A DNA stretch of 17,880 bases from an archaeon (GTDB taxonomy: Archaea > Hydrothermarchaeota > Hydrothermarchaeia > JALTZZ01 > JALUTC01), in contig JALTZH010000079.1 in NCBI GenBank assembly GCA_027051265.1, positions 1-17,880 of the forward strand. The letters are read 5' to 3'. Positions 4,168-16,297 of this stretch are shown here, in pieces. The notes under the pieces are model-generated. The model saw nothing but the letters and a program-made list of their open reading frames with translations. It had not been told where the DNA came from and did not search any database. The first letter of the stretch is position 1; every line of letters begins with the position of its first letter. Made by a program: the position numbers and the translations under genes.

Positions 4168-4665
4168 TTAGATTTCTCGTATAAGTAATAGGTTTTTTTC
4201 TTTACAAATTTTTTCTAACTCTTTGTAAAATTTTGCTAGATCAACATTCTCATCCAAAGAAATCTCAAATATTGCCGATGATTCTTTTTCGGGACTTGGC
4301 ATGCTTAAGGAAACATCTTCAACCAAAGCATATTTGAGATCGTTTATTCTGTCAATTGTATCTCTTAGATCCGTATCTACTATATGTCCAACCAAAGCAA
4401 CGGTTACGATTCTTTTCTTTTTGACTTCACCAACCTTTGATACAATAATTCCTTTCTCTTCGATTTCTTTTATCATGTTTTCTAAAGCCTTTTGTGAAGG
4501 TACCTCCACTATAAGATTAACCTTAACTCTCTGACTAGGTTTAAGAAGTCGTTCTCTTAAATGAATTATGCTTACAATATTTCCTCCATATTTAGCTATT
4601 GGATCCAATACTCTTAAAAGTTCTCCGGGTATATCTCTCAAATTAACTTCTAAATTTATTCTCAT
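4168..4665 (-). CDS. Tandem ACT-domain regulatory protein (COG2061-like)
   Basis: This 165-residue protein has no catalytic domain and appears to be two ligand-binding ACT domains. The first (about 1-75) begins with the typical NLRDIPGELLRVLDPIAKYGGNIVSI. The second (about 85-160) begins VTVALVGHIVDTDLRDTIDRI. It matches the archaeal group predicted to control homoserine dehydrogenase allosterically; in several methanogens that group is encoded beside hom. No hom gene is within this window, so the target is inferred from the family. The ATG is chosen because homology starts at the first residue. The gene is transcribed away from the UPF0285 gene, with just 10 bases between the two start codons, and converges on the repressor gene at its 3' end. 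Confidence 0.82.
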   Translation of the reverse strand: MRINLEVNLRDIPGELLRVLDPIAKYGGNIVSIIHLRERLLKPSQRVKVNLIVEVPSQKALENMIKEIEEKGIIVSKVGEVKKKRIVTVALVGHIVDTDLRDTIDRINDLKYALVEDVSLSMPSPEKESSAIFEISLDENVDLAKFYKELEKICKEKNLLLIREI

Positions 4666-4706
4666 AAATAATATTATGTTTCTTGGTATTGATCATGGGT
4701 ATAAAT
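4645..4706. promoter_or_regulatory. Overlapping divergent promoters of the ACT-domain and UPF0285 genes
   Basis: The two start codons are separated only by the 10 bases 4666-4675, so each promoter must lie inside the other gene's coding sequence. For the plus gene an AAATTTAT at about 4650-4657 lies near the expected TATA distance for a leaderless or short-leader mRNA. For the minus gene a TATA-like sequence, seen on the plus strand as GGTATAAAT at about 4696-4704, is suitably placed. Neither gene has a ribosome-binding site. The positions come from the sequence; the function is inferred. Confidence 0.35.
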
Positions 4707-5605
4707 CTGTAAGATTTTACATAGAACCAATTGGAGATTTCTTTGAATATAATAGGAAAGAAATTCTCAGGATAGACTTTATGAAAAAATTGGAGAATTA
4801 CAATATAAAGATTGCAGCAATTGCTTATTCAATGGGTGATGGTATTGATAAGATAATTGATACTAGATATGTTAAAAACAGAGGCCTCCTTGAACAAACT
4901 GTTGGAGATTATATCGGTGGAGGAACAAGAGTATATGATGAGGTTACGAAGAGATATTTAACATATCAAATTCCCGGAATGCATAAAAATTTAAAGGTAT
5001 TAGATAAGAGGTTTAGAGTCTTATTCTCACATATGGCTGCTAGTGATAAGGTTGCGTTATCATACTATTGTTTTAAAAAATATAAAAAGAAAAATATGAT
5101 AATATCTGATATTTCATCTAATATAGTTACCGTAGCAATAAAAGATTCTAAATTATTCGGCGGAATTGATGCCTGTATATTGTCGCGTGGATTATATCAT
5201 GGCGTTCTTGATTTAGAGGAGATAAGGAGAATTGATAAATCCGTTATAAAAGCTGGAGAAGCTTTTTATAGAAGTGGTTTAATCTATAGATTAAATTTAT
5301 CTGAAGACGAATTTTTCAAAAACTCTTTTGCAATGGAATGTTTGAAACTTTCAGCTCTTTTACAAATATTTGCCATGTATAATATTATTGAACCTGATAT
5401 TATTGTACTTGCAGGTTCTGCTATCGAGAAAGAATCCTTTAGAAATTTAATTTTAAAAGATTTAGAGAAATTCTGCGAAATTCGTACTGAAAATAATAAA
5501 GTACAAGCTATTGGAGCATCTTATATTGCTAGAGATATATATACAGGTATAAGAAGTATTCTTGGTATAGAAGTTTTTCCTTCTTCTCCATCTTCAATAC
5601 AATAA
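4676..5605 (+). CDS. UPF0285 family protein (methanogenesis marker 12)
   Basis: This ASKHA-fold (sugar kinase/Hsp70-like) protein belongs to a family tied to methanogenesis by phylogenetic distribution, with its biochemical role unassigned. Landmarks in the 309-residue product are MFLGIDHG at the start (phosphate-1 loop), YSMGDGIDKIIDTR, VKNRGLLEQTVGDYIGGGTRVYDEV, the PG-H and SH--AS-K segments, DISSNIVTVAI (phosphate-2 loop), GGIDACIL then YHGVLDLEEIR, VLAGSA, and the ending QAIGASYIARDIYTG then ILGIEVFP. ATG 4676 is right because homology starts there; an open frame extends back to 4568 but only antisense to the ACT gene. The likely leaderless gene diverges from that regulator. Presence of this family is the best hint here that the organism makes, or descends from organisms that make, methane. 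Confidence 0.88.
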   Translation: MFLGIDHGYKSVRFYIEPIGDFFEYNRKEILRIDFMKKLENYNIKIAAIAYSMGDGIDKIIDTRYVKNRGLLEQTVGDYIGGGTRVYDEVTKRYLTYQIPGMHKNLKVLDKRFRVLFSHMAASDKVALSYYCFKKYKKKNMIISDISSNIVTVAIKDSKLFGGIDACILSRGLYHGVLDLEEIRRIDKSVIKAGEAFYRSGLIYRLNLSEDEFFKNSFAMECLKLSALLQIFAMYNIIEPDIIVLAGSAIEKESFRNLILKDLEKFCEIRTENNKVQAIGASYIARDIYTGIRSILGIEVFPSSPSSIQ

Positions 5606-6298: not shown

Positions 6299-7602
6299 GT
6301 GGCGAAGGGTGGAATTGAGTAAATCACGAGAAAAGTTAAAATTAAGGATACAAAGAGGAAACGAGAATTGATCTTAACGAGGACATGTAGAGTAAGATTA
6401 GCCGTGGATAAGGAAACGGAGGCAAAACTTTCCGAGCTTGGAGATATATTTGCGAAGTGTTGGAACTAGATAAATTATTTAAGGAGGAGGCAATTTTTCA
6501 GCGAAGTAGGAGCGGATTTTGCGACAACTGAGAAAAATGATTTATGAAAAGTACAAGAATGTTTTAAAGGTTAATGCTCAGCAAGTTTCGAGAAAGAGTA
6601 CTGAGGCTTGGAAGTCTTTTTTCAAACTTCTTAAACTTAAGAAGGAAAACAAACTACTATGCTTCATAATTCCAAGACTACCGGGATATAGAAAAGATAG
6701 AAAAAATAATAAAAGAGAATCCTTTTTGATCGTAAGGAACGATAGGTATGAGATTAAGGATGATTATATTTATCTGAAAGATTTTAAACTTAAGCTAAAG
6801 TACAGAGGTAGAATTCATTTAAAAGGAAAGCAAAGACGTCTCGAAATCCACTACAACAGTGTAAGGAAGAGATGATATGCACATATACCTTTCTACGTCA
6901 AGGAAAAAATCGTAAGAAACGAGTGGAGAAAAGTTCCATTAACACCTCGTGGAAATAAACAAGCAGGTATCGATTTAGGCGTCAATAACTTGTTCACAGG
7001 ATTCGTAGAAGATGGAACCACATTTTTAATTAGTGGAAGACTTTTGAAAACGGAAGCATTCTACTGGAGGAAAAGGATTGCCAAAGCTCAATCTAAAGGA
7101 GATTTAGATAGAGTTAGAAAGTACTACATCATCTGGAGAAGCAGGTTCGAAGCTTACGTTAGATCTAACTTAGGAGACTTATTCGAAAAATTGTATCATA
7201 TCGGCGTCTCGGTAGTAAAGGTTGGTTATCCTAAATACATTGCAATAGAACTAAATAAATGTTCAAAAGTTAACTTCGTAATAACAAGCCTCCGGAGCTA
7301 TAGAAAAATCCATCAGTCGATCAAAGATCATTGCGAGGAATATGGCATGAAATATATTCCAGTTGAAGAGAAGAGTACATCGAAGATTTGTCCTCTTTGC
7401 GGAGAAATCCATAACAATGGTAGAAAAATACAGGGGCTTATTTGTTTGTCCGAAGTATAGAAAAGCTGTGAATGCTGATCTAGTTGCCGCCCTCAACATC
7501 CTCCATAACGGCAAGTCCACCAATATGATGGATAGCCGTAATGAGTCTAAGACCGAACCCTTAAATTTACTCCTCGCTCTCGCTGGAACCCTTACCCTTT
7601 AG
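6299..7602 (+). pseudogene. tnpB: TnpB (OrfB) RNA-guided nuclease, inactivated by stops and frameshifts
   Basis: TnpB is the RNA-guided RuvC-like nuclease of IS605-type transposons and an ancestor of Cas12. Joining three frames restores a typical thermophile-type protein. Frame one gives LILTRTCRVRLAVDKE up to CWN, a TAG at 6467, then INYLRRRQFF and DFATTEK. A shift near 6530 enters the next frame: IYEKYKNVLKVNAQQVSRK to LEIHYNSVRKR, a TGA at 6873 where a Trp codon is expected (before YAHIPF), then the RuvC motif AGIDLGVNN with Asp at 6972 and SGRLLK. The zinc pair CPLC is at 7389-7400. A second shift near 7425-7435, in an A run, leads to RGLFVCPKY and NADLVAALNI with the last RuvC Asp at 7477. 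The second zinc pair reads CPKY, so a Cys has become Tyr (7456-7458). With two internal stops, two shifts and a lost zinc ligand, it is clearly dead. Confidence 0.9.
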
Positions 7603-9418: not shown

Positions 9419-11230
9419 ATGGAAGGTTTTGTTTATTTGAATGGTAGATTGATAGGAATTCATCCCAATCCAAAAGAATTAGCTGAAAAAATAAGAGAAT
9501 TAAGAAGAAAAGGAATCTTACCCAATCAGGTTAATGTTGTTTATTATGAAGATTTAAACGAAGTATATATTAATACAGATGCAGGTAGAGCTAGAAGATT
9601 ACTCGTTATTGTTAAAAACGGAAAACCTTTGGTTTCTGAGGATGATATAAAAGCAATAATTCAAGGAAAAAAGACCTTAGATGATTTACTGAGAGAAGGA
9701 AAAGTGGAATTCTTAGATGCCGAGGAAGAAGAAAATGCTCTTGTAGCAATATTTCCTAACGAAGTAACAAAAGAACATACGCATCTGGAACTTGATCCAC
9801 TCTTAATCTTAGGTGTTTCAGCAGGTAATATATGTTATCCAGAGCATAATTCTTCTCCAAGAAATACAATGGGAGCTGCAATGCAAAAACAAGCACTTGG
9901 ATTATCAACAGCAAACTTTCGATTAAGAACAGATACCAGAAGCTATTTGTTACACTATCCTCAAATACCTTTAGTTAAAACAAGAGTAACCGAAGTAATA
10001 GGATATGATCGCAGAGCTTCTGGTCAAAACTTTATAGTAGCTGTTTTAAGCTATCATGGTTATAATATGGAGGATGCTCTAATTATAAATAAAGCAGCTA
10101 TTGAAAGAGGTTTATCGAGATCAACATTTTACAGAACTTATGAAACGGAAGAGAGAAAATATCCAGGTGGTCAAGAAGATAGAATTGAAATACCTAGTGA
10201 AGAAGTTATAGGATATAGAGGAGAAGATGCATACAAAGCCTTAGATGTAGATGGAATTGCTATACCAGAAACATGGGTTGAATCTGATCAAGTCATTATT
10301 GGTAAAACATCTCCTCCTAGATTTTTAGAAGAAATTGTTGAATTTGGAGTACCAAAGGAAGAAAGACGAGAGACATCGGTTGCTGTTAGACATGGAGAAC
10401 GAGGCTATATCGATCAGGTAATCTTAACAGTTAGTCAAGAAGGTAACAAATTGGTAAAAGTTAAAGTAAGAGAAGAGAGAATAACTGAGATCGGTGACAA
10501 GTTCGCTTCTCGACACGGACAAAAAGGTGTTGTTGGATTAATAGCTAGACATGAAGACATGCCATTTACCGAAGATGGTATTGTTCCCGATCTCATAATA
10601 AATCCACATGCCATACCTTCAAGAATGACAATAGGACATGTTTTGGAAATGTTAGCAGGAAAAGTTGCATGTTTAAAAGGTGAAAGAATAGATGGTTCGG
10701 CATTTTCAGGATTAAAAGAGGGAGATCTTCGAAAGATGCTTAAGAATCTTGGTTTTAAGAGTAATGGAAAAGAAATTTTATACGATGGTATAACGGGAAA
10801 AGCTTATGAAGCAGAGATTTTCATAGGTGTAATTTATTATCAAAAGTTACATCATATGGTTGCTGGTAAGATTCATGCGAGATCGAGAGGTCCGGTAACA
10901 TTATTAACACGACAACCCACAGAGGGTAAAGCAAAAGAAGGAGGTTTGAGATTTGGTGAAATGGAGAGAGATTGCCTTATAGCACATGGTGCTGCAATGC
11001 TTCTTAAAGAAAGATTACTTGAAGAAAGTGATAAATATAAGATGCTTGTATGTGAAAATTGTGGTGGAATTGCATATAAGGATCATGTTAGGAATAAAGT
11101 TATATGTCCAATATGTGGAGAGACATCTAGATTTTCGGAAGTAGAAGTTTGTTATGCATTTAAATTATTATTAGATGAATTAAAAAGTATGGGTATTTTG
11201 CCAAGATTATTACTTGGAGAAAAGAGGTGA
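9419..11230 (+). CDS. rpoB1: RNA polymerase subunit Rpo2 C-terminal half (B')
   Basis: B' completes the second-largest subunit and supplies the wall, hybrid-binding and clamp-anchor regions. It begins [12 protein letters not shown] then [10 protein letters not shown]. It includes [39 protein letters not shown] and the catalytic-core stretch [15 protein letters not shown]. The C-terminal zinc ribbon has Cys at about 545, 548, 563 and 566. The length of about 603 residues is normal. I prefer ATG 9419, which sits a few bases after GGAAGTGAT. A GTG at 9410, overlapping the rpoB2 stop, would add three residues and is possible. Spacing to both neighbours shows translational coupling in the operon. 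Confidence 0.97.
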
Positions 11231-13905
11231 TTCTTATCAGATTAGAACAAAAACAAATAATCGGTATAAAATTTAATATAATGTCTCCTGAAACAATAAG
11301 GAAAATGGCAGTCGTTAAAATAGTAACTCCAGAAACATACGATGAAGATGGTTATCCTGTAGATGGAGGTTTAATGGATAGAAGGCTTGGAACAGTTACT
11401 CCAGGGCTTAGATGTAAAACGTGTGGAGGAAAATTTGGTGAATGTCCAGGACATTTTGGAGTAATCGAATTAGCTAGACCTGTTATTCATATCGGATATG
11501 CAAAATATATTGCAAAGATTCTTAAGGTTATATGTAGGAACTGTTCTAGAGTTAGATTAACAAAGGAAGAGAGATCAAAATTTTTAGAAAGATTAAAGAA
11601 ATATAAAGGAAGCATATTATTGTTTGAAATATTTGATGAAATAATAAAAACTGTAAAAGATAGAAAAACCTGCCCACATTGCAATGCTGTCCAGTATGAA
11701 ATTAAATTTGAGAATCCTTATAACTATGTAGAAATAAATCCTGAAGAGCAAGATAAAAGAAAGAGAGAGCGAAAACTAACACCAATAGATATAAGAGAAA
11801 GACTGGAAAAAATACCAGACGATGATCTAATATTCTTAGGTTTAGATGAAAATAATAGACCGGAGTGGATGGTATTAACAGCTTTACCTGTTCCACCGGT
11901 AACGGTGAGACCTTCAATAATATTAGAAACAGGTGAGAGAAGTGAGGATGATTTAACACATAAACTCGTAGATATAGTTAGGATAAATAAAAAGTTGATG
12001 GATGCTCTTGAAGCTGGTGCTCCACAACCTATTATAGAAGATTTATGGGATTTACTCCAGTATCATGTTGCTACATACATAAACAACGAAATTTCGGGAA
12101 TGCCACCAGCAAAACATAGATCTGGAAGACCTTTGAAGACGTTGGCACAAAGATTAAAAGGAAAGGAAGGTAGATTTAGAGGGAATCTCTCTGGTAAAAG
12201 AGTAAATTATTCTGCTAGAACAGTGATTTCACCAGATCCAAACCTAAGTCTTAATGAAGTGGGTGTTCCATTAGAAGTTGCAAAGGAATTGACAGTTCCG
12301 GTTAGAGTTACGATGTTTAACAAGGAATTTCTTAAACAATTGATAAGAAACGGACCTCACAAATATCCTGGAGCAAATTATATTGAAAGACCTGATGGTG
12401 TAAGAATTAATTTGGCAAGAGTAAAGAATCTGGATGAAGTTGCAGATAAACTTGATATAGGATGGGTTGTTCACAGACATTTAATGGATGGGGATATAGT
12501 ATTGTTTAACAGACAACCATCGTTACATAGGATGAGCATGATGGCACATATTGTTAAGGTATTACCTGGTAGAACATTTAGATTAAATTTAACTGTCTGT
12601 CCTCCTTATAATGCGGATTTTGATGGAGATGAGATGAATCTTCATGTACCTCAAACAGAAGAAGCAAGAGCTGAAGCAAGAATATTGATGTTAGTACAAA
12701 CACAAATATTGTCACCGAGATTTGGAGGGCCTATAATAGGATGTATTCATGATCATATCTCTGGATCCTATCTTTTAACAAAAAGAGGAACAAAAATATC
12801 CAGAGAGGAATTAATCGATCTATTATATATAGCAGGTATACTTGAAGATGTTTATAATAAATTAGGAGATAAAAAAGAATTTACAGGTAAGGAAGTATTC
12901 AGTTTATTCTTACCAGATGATATAAATATCAAGTTTAAATCAAAATTATGTAAATCTTATGGTTGTGAAAAATGTTTGGAAGAAAATTGTCCACACGATG
13001 CTTTTGTAGTAATAAGAAATGGTAAACTCATAAGAGGAGTTATCGATGAAAAAGCAATAGGAGCATTCGCTGGAGAAGTTGTAGATATTATTGCGAAGAA
13101 ACATGGACTAGAAGCTGCAAGAAAATTTTTAGATTCATATACAAAATTCATAATTGCATTTTTAATGCGTAGAGGATTTACTACAGGTATAGATGATGAA
13201 GACCTGCCCCAAGAGGCTATAGAGAGAATTGAGGAAGTATTACAGGAATCTATAAAGAAGGTTAAAGAAGTTATAAAAATGTATGAAGAAGGTTTACTTG
13301 AACCTTTGCCTGGAAGAAGTTTGGAAGAAACTCTTGAAATGAAAATTATGCAGATATTGTCCGAAGCTAGAGATACGTCGGGAAGAATTGCAAACGAATA
13401 TCTTGAGAAACAGAGAAAAGAGAATCATGCAAGAATCATGGCAATAACTGGTGCACGAGGATCTTTGTTGAACATAACTCAGATGGCTGCTTGTTTAGGT
13501 CAACAATCAGTTAGAGGTGAAAGAGTCAAAAGAGGATTTATAAATAGAGTTTTATCACATTTCAAGAAAGGTGATTTAGGTGCTAAAGCAAGAGGATTTG
13601 TTGCAAGTAGTTATAAGAAAGGATTACACCCAGTAGAATATTTCTTCCATGCAGCCGGTGGAAGAGAAGGTCTTGTTGATACAGCTATAAGAACAAGTCA
13701 ATCCGGATATATGCAGAGAAGACTGATCAATGCTCTACAAGATTTAAAAGTTGAATATGACGGGACGGTGAGGGATGCTAGAGGAGTTATCGTTCAATTT
13801 AAATATGGTGATGATGGCATTGATCCATCGAGAAGTGATTGGGGTAAAACTTTAGATGTTAAAAAAATAATTGAAGGTATCATAGGTGAAAAGCGTGAAC
13901 GTTGA
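11227..13905 (+). CDS. rpoA1: RNA polymerase subunit Rpo1 N-terminal part (A')
   Basis: A' carries the polymerase active site. The 892 residues show the clamp zinc motifs [16 protein letters not shown] (about 63-78) and CRNC with a later CPHC, the [20 protein letters not shown] and [20 protein letters not shown] switch/rudder region, [13 protein letters not shown], and [15 protein letters not shown] with the three Mg-binding Asp at 464, 466 and 468. A Cys cluster ([17 protein letters not shown]) lies around 578-594, and the end matches the bridge-helix region ([24 protein letters not shown]). The start is unclear. The GTG at 11227 overlaps the rpoB1 stop and is buried in the near-perfect ribosome-binding sequence GAGGTGAT (11224-11231). 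The next ATG, 11281, would remove the conserved IIGIKF. The GTG is used as the least bad choice. Confidence 0.96.
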
Positions 13906-16297
13906 AGAATTCTTCAAAGATTTGAAAGAAAAAATTCCTGAAAATATTTATAACGAATTAATTCAAGAATTAAAAAAATATAAAGATTTGACTGAAGAAG
14001 ATTTAAAGAGAATAAAATCCGAAATTCTTAGAAGATTGGATTTCTCAACGATTCAACCTGGAGAAGCTGTAGGAATAATTGCAGCTCAAAGTATAGGAGA
14101 ACCAAGTACACAGATGTCACTACATAGAGATGAAAAAATTATAATAAAAAGAGGAGAGAACGTTGAATTTATTAAAATAGGAGACCTTGTCGATGGAATG
14201 ATCAAAAGATATGGATGCAAGCGTATAAATGACTCAGAGGTATGTGATATTGATACTGATATAGAGGTTCTCTCATTAACTGATGACGAAAAATTGGTAT
14301 GGAAGAGAGTATCGTCATTTATAAGACATAAATTCGATGGTTATCTCCTAAAGATAAGAACTAAAACAGGAAGAGAAATAGTGGCAACGCCTTATCACTC
14401 TTTTATTATTAGGAAGAATAACTCTATCCTACCAATTAGAGGTGAAAGACTGAAGATAGGGGATCGAATTCCTATAATAAGGAAGATATATTTAGATAAT
14501 ATAAACCATACTAACAATATAGAATCGAAAATAGAACTAAACGAGAAGTTGGGATATGTGGTTGGAGTTTATATAGCTAAAGGTTTTTTGAAAAATGGAA
14601 ACGTAACGATATCAAATTCTCGGAGAGAAATTATAAACAAAGTTTTAGAATGTCTTAAAGAACTTAAAATTAAAGATTTGAGTAAGAAAGAATATGAGAA
14701 AGAATTATCGTTAAATTCAAACATTTTAGTTGAATTTCTATCATATTTTGGAAAAAATTCAGATAAGAGATTACCTTCTTTCGTTTTATCTGCTAAGGAA
14801 GAATTTATAATAGGACTTATACGAGGAATCTTTGATTGTAATGGAAAAATATACAGGAATAAAATCATGTTAAAACTTCCTTCAAGAGAACTTTCTGAGC
14901 AAATGCTATTCTTACTCTCGAGACTTGGAATATATTCCGGTATTAAAGTAGCAGGAAATTCTTATATAATATATATATCCGATAGATATGTTGATACTTT
15001 TAAAGAAAAAGTTAAACCTTACGTAAATTTGAACGATATTAAAAGTAGTGGAAGAGATTATATTGATAGAATTCCAAACTTTGGTGATATCTTAAAAGTT
15101 GCTGCAAATAAACTTGGATATAAATGTTCTTCCATAAATAAATACACGAGAATTCAAGAAATTGGTAGAAATACTTTATTAAAACATATAAACAGGATGA
15201 AAAATCTTGGATATTGTGAGGAGCTTAATCTTCTGGAAAAGATTGCAAACAGTGATATTATTTGGGATAAAATAGTTGAAATAGAAAGAATACCTTATAA
15301 AGGTTATGTATACGATTTGTCAGTACCAGAAAGTGAAACGTTTGTTACTTCGCAGGGAGTCGTAACTCATAACACTATGAGAACATTTCATTACGCTGGA
15401 GTTGCTGAACTGAATGTAACTCTTGGACTACCTAGATTAATAGAACTTGTTGATGCTCGGAGTGAACCTTCGACACCTATGATGATAATATATCTCGAAC
15501 CAGAATATGCAAAAGACAGAGAGAAAGCTAAAACCATAGCTAGAGAAATTGAATATATTACGATACAGGATTTAACGGAAAAAACAGAGATAGACATTCT
15601 GGAATCAAAAATAGTGATATATTTAGATGTAAGAGAGTTGAGGAGGCATGAAGTATCGGCGGAGGATGTTGCGAGAAGAATTAAGTTAAAGAAGAGTAAT
15701 GTTGTTCCAAAAGAAGATAGAATAGAGATATATGTTGAAGGTGCAACATTAAAAGAACTGCGAAAAATTAGAGATAGCGTTCTTGATACTTATATAAAAG
15801 GTATAAAAGGAATCAAAAGAGTTGTTATAAGAAAAGAGGGTGATGAATATGTTATATATACACAAGGTACAAATCTCAAAGAGATACTAAAACTTGAAGG
15901 AATTGATTGGAGAAGAACAAGAACAAACAACATAAAAGAAATAGAGGAGGTTTTAGGTATAGAAGCTGCGAGAAATGCTCTCATACAAGAAATTGTAAAT
16001 ACTTTAGAAGAACAAGGTTTGGAAGTTGATTTGAGACATATAAGTTTATTAGCAGATATGATGACAGTAGATGGTGAAGTAAAACCAATAGGAAGACATG
16101 GTGTTGCTGGAGAAAAAGTTAGTACTTTAGCAAGAGCTGCATTTGAGATAACGGTTGAAAACTTGATACGTGCATCAATAGTTGGTGAAACAGATCGATT
16201 AGAAGGAATAATAGAAAATATTATAGTTGGAAAACCTATCAGATTAGGTACTGGTATTGTAGAGTTAATAGCAAAGAGAGAGTACTTCAAAATTTAA
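13895..16297 (+). CDS. rpoA2: RNA polymerase subunit Rpo1 C-terminal part (A'') precursor with intein
   Basis: A'' forms the trigger loop, jaw and part of the clamp. The coding sequence is 800 residues from this start, but 419 are an intein, leaving an A'' of about 381, the normal size. The first extein ends GIIAAQSIGEPSTQM, and the second resumes TMRTFHYAGVAELNVTLGLPRLIELVDAR and ends at VELIAKREYFKI. Joined, they rebuild the expected QM-TMRTFHYAG trigger loop. GTG 13895 has AGGTGA 5 bases upstream (13884-13889). GTG 13886 is an alternative with weaker AAGGT upstream and adds three residues. Either overlaps the rpoA1 stop. A Ser replaces the usual Gly in GEPGT, at a position that is Ala in eukaryotes. 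gatA follows after 41 bases, instead of the ribosomal L30e/nusA genes seen in many relatives. Confidence 0.96.
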   Translation: MNVEEFFKDLKEKIPENIYNELIQELKKYKDLTEEDLKRIKSEILRRLDFSTIQPGEAVGIIAAQSIGEPSTQMSLHRDEKIIIKRGENVEFIKIGDLVDGMIKRYGCKRINDSEVCDIDTDIEVLSLTDDEKLVWKRVSSFIRHKFDGYLLKIRTKTGREIVATPYHSFIIRKNNSILPIRGERLKIGDRIPIIRKIYLDNINHTNNIESKIELNEKLGYVVGVYIAKGFLKNGNVTISNSRREIINKVLECLKELKIKDLSKKEYEKELSLNSNILVEFLSYFGKNSDKRLPSFVLSAKEEFIIGLIRGIFDCNGKIYRNKIMLKLPSRELSEQMLFLLSRLGIYSGIKVAGNSYIIYISDRYVDTFKEKVKPYVNLNDIKSSGRDYIDRIPNFGDILKVAANKLGYKCSSINKYTRIQEIGRNTLLKHINRMKNLGYCEELNLLEKIANSDIIWDKIVEIERIPYKGYVYDLSVPESETFVTSQGVVTHNTMRTFHYAGVAELNVTLGLPRLIELVDARSEPSTPMMIIYLEPEYAKDREKAKTIAREIEYITIQDLTEKTEIDILESKIVIYLDVRELRRHEVSAEDVARRIKLKKSNVVPKEDRIEIYVEGATLKELRKIRDSVLDTYIKGIKGIKRVVIRKEGDEYVIYTQGTNLKEILKLEGIDWRRTRTNNIKEIEEVLGIEAARNALIQEIVNTLEEQGLEVDLRHISLLADMMTVDGEVKPIGRHGVAGEKVSTLARAAFEITVENLIRASIVGETDRLEGIIENIIVGKPIRLGTGIVELIAKREYFKI
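14117..15373 (+). other. Intein (419 aa) within rpoA2, splicing-competent look, decayed LAGLIDADG endonuclease
   Basis: The borders are set by the extein: after QM the intein starts SLHRDEK and ends VVTHN, with Thr as the first downstream extein residue. Splicing features visible are Ser1, block B ATPYHSF (Thr91, His94 of the intein), and block F GYVYDLSVPESETF then VVTHN with the penultimate His and final Asn. A Hedgehog/intein fold is split by a two-motif LAGLIDADG homing endonuclease. The first motif reads LGYVVGVYIAKG, the second LIRGIFDCNG. The positions normally holding the metal-binding acid are Lys155 and Asn242 in intein numbering. KRLPSF between them and LLSRLGIYSGIKV after them are also family-like. 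So the protein should splice but probably cannot cut DNA. A'' inteins are known in some methanogens (established knowledge). Confidence 0.93.

Follow-up and report, generated by a model that had tools for sequence, protein, structure and literature searches.

Inteins in the archaeal RNA polymerase gene are a described class: rPol A' and A'' inteins have been named for Methanocaldococcus jannaschii and an rPol A'' intein for Natronomonas pharaonis (PMC1635734), and an rpolA intein allele has been reported in ten halobacterial sequences (PMC4071816). Intein-bearing A'' proteins already form an NCBIfam family (NF011491/PRK14898), the profile of which contains the intein. Among inteins in other hosts, the Pho VMA intein has kept its full length with a degenerate, inactive endonuclease, and this domain, which lacks the active-site Asp, showed neither cleavage nor binding of its site (PMC8966425).

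We analysed a 17,880-nucleotide stretch of contig JALTZH010000079.1 (hereafter the window), from a member of the Hydrothermarchaeota (assembly GCA_027051265.1), in which rpoA2 is interrupted in frame. Judged from its sequence, the insert is one more, unexceptional member of the archaeal A'' (rPol A'') intein allele already known, since many other archaea carry the same insert at precisely this position. A preliminary description of this locus, which remarked that A'' inteins were already known from some methanogens, was right on that point, as M. jannaschii is named in PMC1635734.

An intein in the trigger loop of subunit A''

The features of the locus are as follows.

13886..16297, forward strand: rpoA2, RNA polymerase subunit A'' with in-frame intein (from the list of open reading frames; 803 codons)
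13886..14116, forward strand: N-extein, ending ...AAQSIGEPSTQM, the trigger loop up to the equivalent of Rpb1 Met1079 (from the sequence and the clean boundary with genome G001)
14117..15373, forward strand: intein of 1257 nt and 419 aa, Ser1 to His418-Asn419 (PF14890, TIGR01445, TIGR01443 and an alignment of 35 inteins)
14117..14506, forward strand: N-terminal splicing region, with Ser1 and block B ATPYHSF (T91, H94) (invariant residues; TIGR01445 over residues 2-97)
14531..15016, forward strand: LAGLIDADG endonuclease domain with both catalytic acid positions lost (PF14528 in two stretches; residue table)
15257..15373, forward strand: C-terminal splicing region, blocks F/G GYVYDLSVPESETFVTSQGVVTHN (invariant Y399, D400, T417, H418 and N419; TIGR01443)
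15374..16297, forward strand: C-extein, opening with Thr+1 in TMRTFHYAG (alignment with solved archaeal A'' chains; numbering of PMC3737540)

The rpoA2 frame begins with GTG at 13886 or with an alternative in-frame GTG at 13895, and its product scores 835.8 bits against NF011491 (cut-off 783) and 473.4 bits against TIGR02389 (cut-off 420.65). Three intein profiles match the product far beyond chance, namely PF14890 (Intein_splicing; 85.0 bits, cut-off 35.8), TIGR01445 (62.0, cut-off 24.5) and TIGR01443 (24.8, cut-off 15.6), and PF14528 matches the intein above its cut-off (49.1 bits) in two stretches, corresponding to a LAGLIDADG domain with two motifs. The Ser1 codon (14117-14119) directly follows GEPSTQM, and the intein ends in ...VVTHN at 15373, followed by TMRTFHYAG. 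Its sequence thus carries a Ser1 nucleophile, a block B Thr-x-x-His (ATPYHSF) and a THN end before Thr, as expected of a cis-splicing intein, and the spliced A'' is predicted to have 381 residues (start at 13895) or 384 residues (start at 13886). With the insert left out, the extein sequence aligns with solved archaeal A'' chains over nearly its whole length; among solved structures, the insert itself is closest to other archaeal inteins. A single-sequence structure prediction of the intein reached a mean pLDDT of 44.6, and the model was left unused.

The borders are fixed independently by genome G001, which belongs to the same genus and has an rpoA2 with a clean empty site: its DNA alignment (80.9% identity) ends exactly at 14116 and resumes exactly at 15374 (80.6% identity). 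The A'' proteins of the two genomes are 88% identical, and flanking identity to G001 shows no clear dip or rise beside the site that would trace co-conversion. The site is likewise empty in all other members of the phylum that allow it to be read. The preliminary description had placed the intein at 14117-15373, joined the exteins as GEPSTQM-TMRTFHYAG and named Ser1 and Thr+1 as the splicing residues. The borders are correct to the base according to the DNA reading, the profiles and the G001 breakpoints, and the junction and both residues are confirmed in the sequence. Neither of the two findings that it named as arguing against it was made: the extein borders hold, and this genome (assembly 95% complete) has one rpoA2 only, with no second, intein-free copy.

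Published equivalences place the insertion within the enzyme. Residues Q80, L83 and H87 of Pfu A'' correspond to Q1078, L1081 and H1085 of Rpb1 (PMC3737540; PMC5127505), and the junction therefore falls between M1079 and T1080, with the equivalent of His1085, the catalytic His of the trigger loop, at C-extein residue 6. This is the nucleotide-interacting region (Rpb1 1078-1085), and the adjoining Met1079 has been called a linchpin of the trigger loop (PMC5127505). These equivalences bear out the position given in the preliminary description, six residues before His1085, and its statement that the trigger loop stays interrupted until splicing follows from where the insert lies. In recombinant Pyrococcus RNA polymerase, trigger-loop deletions or H87A abolished promoter transcription (PMC3737540), so an A'' with 419 extra residues in this loop would very probably be inactive until spliced; the earlier claim that A'' cannot function unspliced is, by this reasoning, well founded. 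A literature search, judged by titles and abstracts, apparently returned no paper discussing a trigger-loop intein.

Several observations concern the rest of the window and the genome. Broken TnpB (IS605-type) fragments lie at 6519-7523, between rpoH and rpoB''; in G001, rpoH directly precedes rpoB'' without them (L119). A methanogenesis marker 12 protein is encoded at 4568-5605; a methanogen host was considered on this account and rejected, no mcrA having been detected in the genome. A 5461-base public contig titled DPANN group archaeon (WAOB01000055.1) matches 9480-14940 base for base, a span that takes in the first part of the intein; the two may share a sample or an assembly. The same genome holds more inteins (L118, 3037-5802; L116, 2788-6642; L117, 1031-3424), and the further intein hosts, as named from sequence reading, are replication factor C small subunit (two inteins), DNA polymerase II large subunit (DP2; a short one) and translation initiation factor IF2 (one).

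Same-site inteins and the state of the endonuclease

A homologue search of about 850 archaeal genomes added 34 complete inteins, spread over many archaeal families, that occupy the identical position in A''. All 35 complete inteins compared share the site GEP.TQM/T (the slash marking the junction), Ser1, the HN end and Thr+1, and their alignment has S1, T91, H94, Y399, D400, T417, H418 and N419 invariant. Identity of this intein to the other same-site members is 31-44%, and its best same-site matches reach 319.5 bits, compared with ~90 bits for the best matches beyond the confirmed A'' inteins. Against NF011491, the cut-off of which was passed by one of 14 named control genomes, the intein by itself scores 348.6 bits. 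Some same-site members carry haloarchaeal-type TMNTFH exteins; from these members and from NF011491, rather than from the sequences themselves, we infer that the M. jannaschii and Natronomonas inteins occupy the same site. Viral contigs were also searched for the allele, and no relative was found in them.

The preliminary description had singled out the insertion site and the choice of residues as worth comparison. Neither is special, both being common to all 35 complete members, and Thr+1 was not chosen by the intein: it is present at empty rpoA2 sites too and is therefore the native A'' residue.

Departures from the full-length form were seen in some same-site inteins. Three (L105, L106 and L100) are shortened to about 310-335 residues, towards mini-inteins. 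A copy of the same allele in the near-complete genome G296 (L073) is frameshifted at a stretch of six A, both sides being otherwise intact; this is probably a sequencing error, and a broken or split rpoA2 in such a genome would, if true, be worth noting. Another A'' intein, in G694 (L109), has a frame shift within the intein, likely an error because that genome is incomplete.

Both LAGLIDADG catalytic acids of this intein are replaced, by K155 (14579-14581) and N242 (14840-14842), a point that the preliminary description had overlooked, as it had the empty sites in related genomes. Acids occupy both positions in 23 of the 35 inteins, one position in five and neither in seven, this one included, with the columns being unreliable for the shortened L080, L105 and L106. 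Asn at the second position also occurs in four inteins that retain the first acid. The endonuclease has, moreover, diverged beyond expectation, its identity to homologues lying ~0.11 below that predicted from the splicing domain. This deviation averages -0.09 in the six long acid-less inteins and +0.02 in the 22 others with both acids, although the points are non-independent and near-copies among the acid-less inteins leave a p-value of little use. Such over-divergence looks like relaxed selection after loss of cutting. The endonuclease is apparently dead, a loss of cutting that the loss of both acids predicts but does not prove; with both acids gone and the domain over-diverged, the intein is expected to have kept splicing and lost homing.

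Origin and retention of the intein

In the intein tree, this intein falls in a 15-row set (support 100/99) dominated by three families, f51 and f31, which we infer from extein features, intein numbers and genome sizes to be methanococcal, and f16, taken on the same grounds to be Archaeoglobaceae. The f51 and f31 inteins nest among those of f16. The A'' proteins of these genomes, by contrast, group cleanly by family, and the allele has therefore moved horizontally among archaea. The end branch leading to this intein is long (1.28), which prevents its donor from being named. Because the relatives are empty, gain in this lineage is the simplest interpretation, although a presence-absence pattern by itself does not separate gain from repeated loss. 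That the intein was ancestral in the phylum and precisely lost in all other members is compatible with the same pattern, and the long branch agrees with it. We regard this history as unlikely, as it needs many exact losses, every other readable member of the phylum being empty, and the intein tree departs from the host tree among the thermophile families. Most likely, the intein was acquired horizontally and is now stuck in an essential gene.

We hold it very probable that this is an ordinary cis-splicing LAGLIDADG intein of the A'' allele, acquired horizontally, with a decayed endonuclease, and that it persists as an immobile splicing passenger. On this account, its most likely route was homing from another archaeon into conserved codons of the rpoA2 trigger loop. 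Translation would yield the whole precursor, with the trigger loop split and A'' inactive before splicing. Ser1 and Thr+1 would act as the acyl-shift nucleophiles and Asn419 would cyclise with the assistance of His418, releasing the intein and ligating GEPSTQM to TMRTFHYAG as a normal A''. Decay of the endonuclease afterwards would have left the intein immobile and still splicing. It would be kept because only an exact deletion leaves A'' working, an imprecise one destroying the essential catalytic loop.

Other roles for the insert can be weighed against this passenger account. Retention through conditional splicing, for example by temperature or redox, which would gate the supply of active RNA polymerase, has a precedent in native exteins in the archaeal RadA intein (PMC5790916), and would suit both the insertion in an essential catalytic loop and the preservation of the splicing residues beside a dead-looking endonuclease. 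However, gating through splicing rate, which the preliminary description had raised, finds no support in these sequences. The locus shows no sign of regulation, relatives that include a genome of the same genus manage without the intein, and a stuck passenger covers the same facts; we therefore consider conditional splicing very unlikely and regulation probably absent. Its stronger form, in which co-option of an intein whose endonuclease is dead lets the rate of trigger-loop splicing adjust the amount of active RNA polymerase to the environment, seems to us a little less credible still. An endonuclease that remains active with altered catalytic residues, keeping the intein mobile, is the least probable of these proposals. 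Both LAGLIDADG motifs are recognisable, PF14528 scores above its cut-off, and Asn recurs at the second position in the four inteins with the first acid kept. Against this, Lys stands in place of the first acid, the domain has diverged more than expected and the similar Pho VMA domain was inert towards its site (PMC8966425).

As a passenger, the intein would be a clean example of a late stage in the intein life cycle, with splicing residues intact and the endonuclease apparently dead. Its insertion point is among the most constrained parts of the enzyme, a congeneric genome without the intein is available for comparison, and the case extends a widespread archaeal allele to another host lineage. 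Knowledge of inteins or of RNA polymerase in general is unchanged by this case.

Comparison with known inteins

By sequence, the closest solved structures are PI-PkoII (2cw7) and the TFIIB intein (5o9i). Both cover the splicing blocks and the PI-PkoII match also covers the endonuclease, but they come from other host proteins and match in part only. In its state of decay, the intein resembles the Pho VMA intein (PMC8966425), which is likewise full length and has kept a LAGLIDADG domain while losing the active-site acids. The Pho VMA intein differs in host gene and site and was tested in vitro, whereas the present intein is known as a sequence. The rPol A'' allele of M. jannaschii and N. pharaonis (PMC1635734) and the rpolA allele of Halobacteria (PMC4071816) share its host gene. 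What distinguishes it from known rPol A'' members is a host phylum in which no other carrier was found and the loss of both endonuclease acids, a loss that only some members share.
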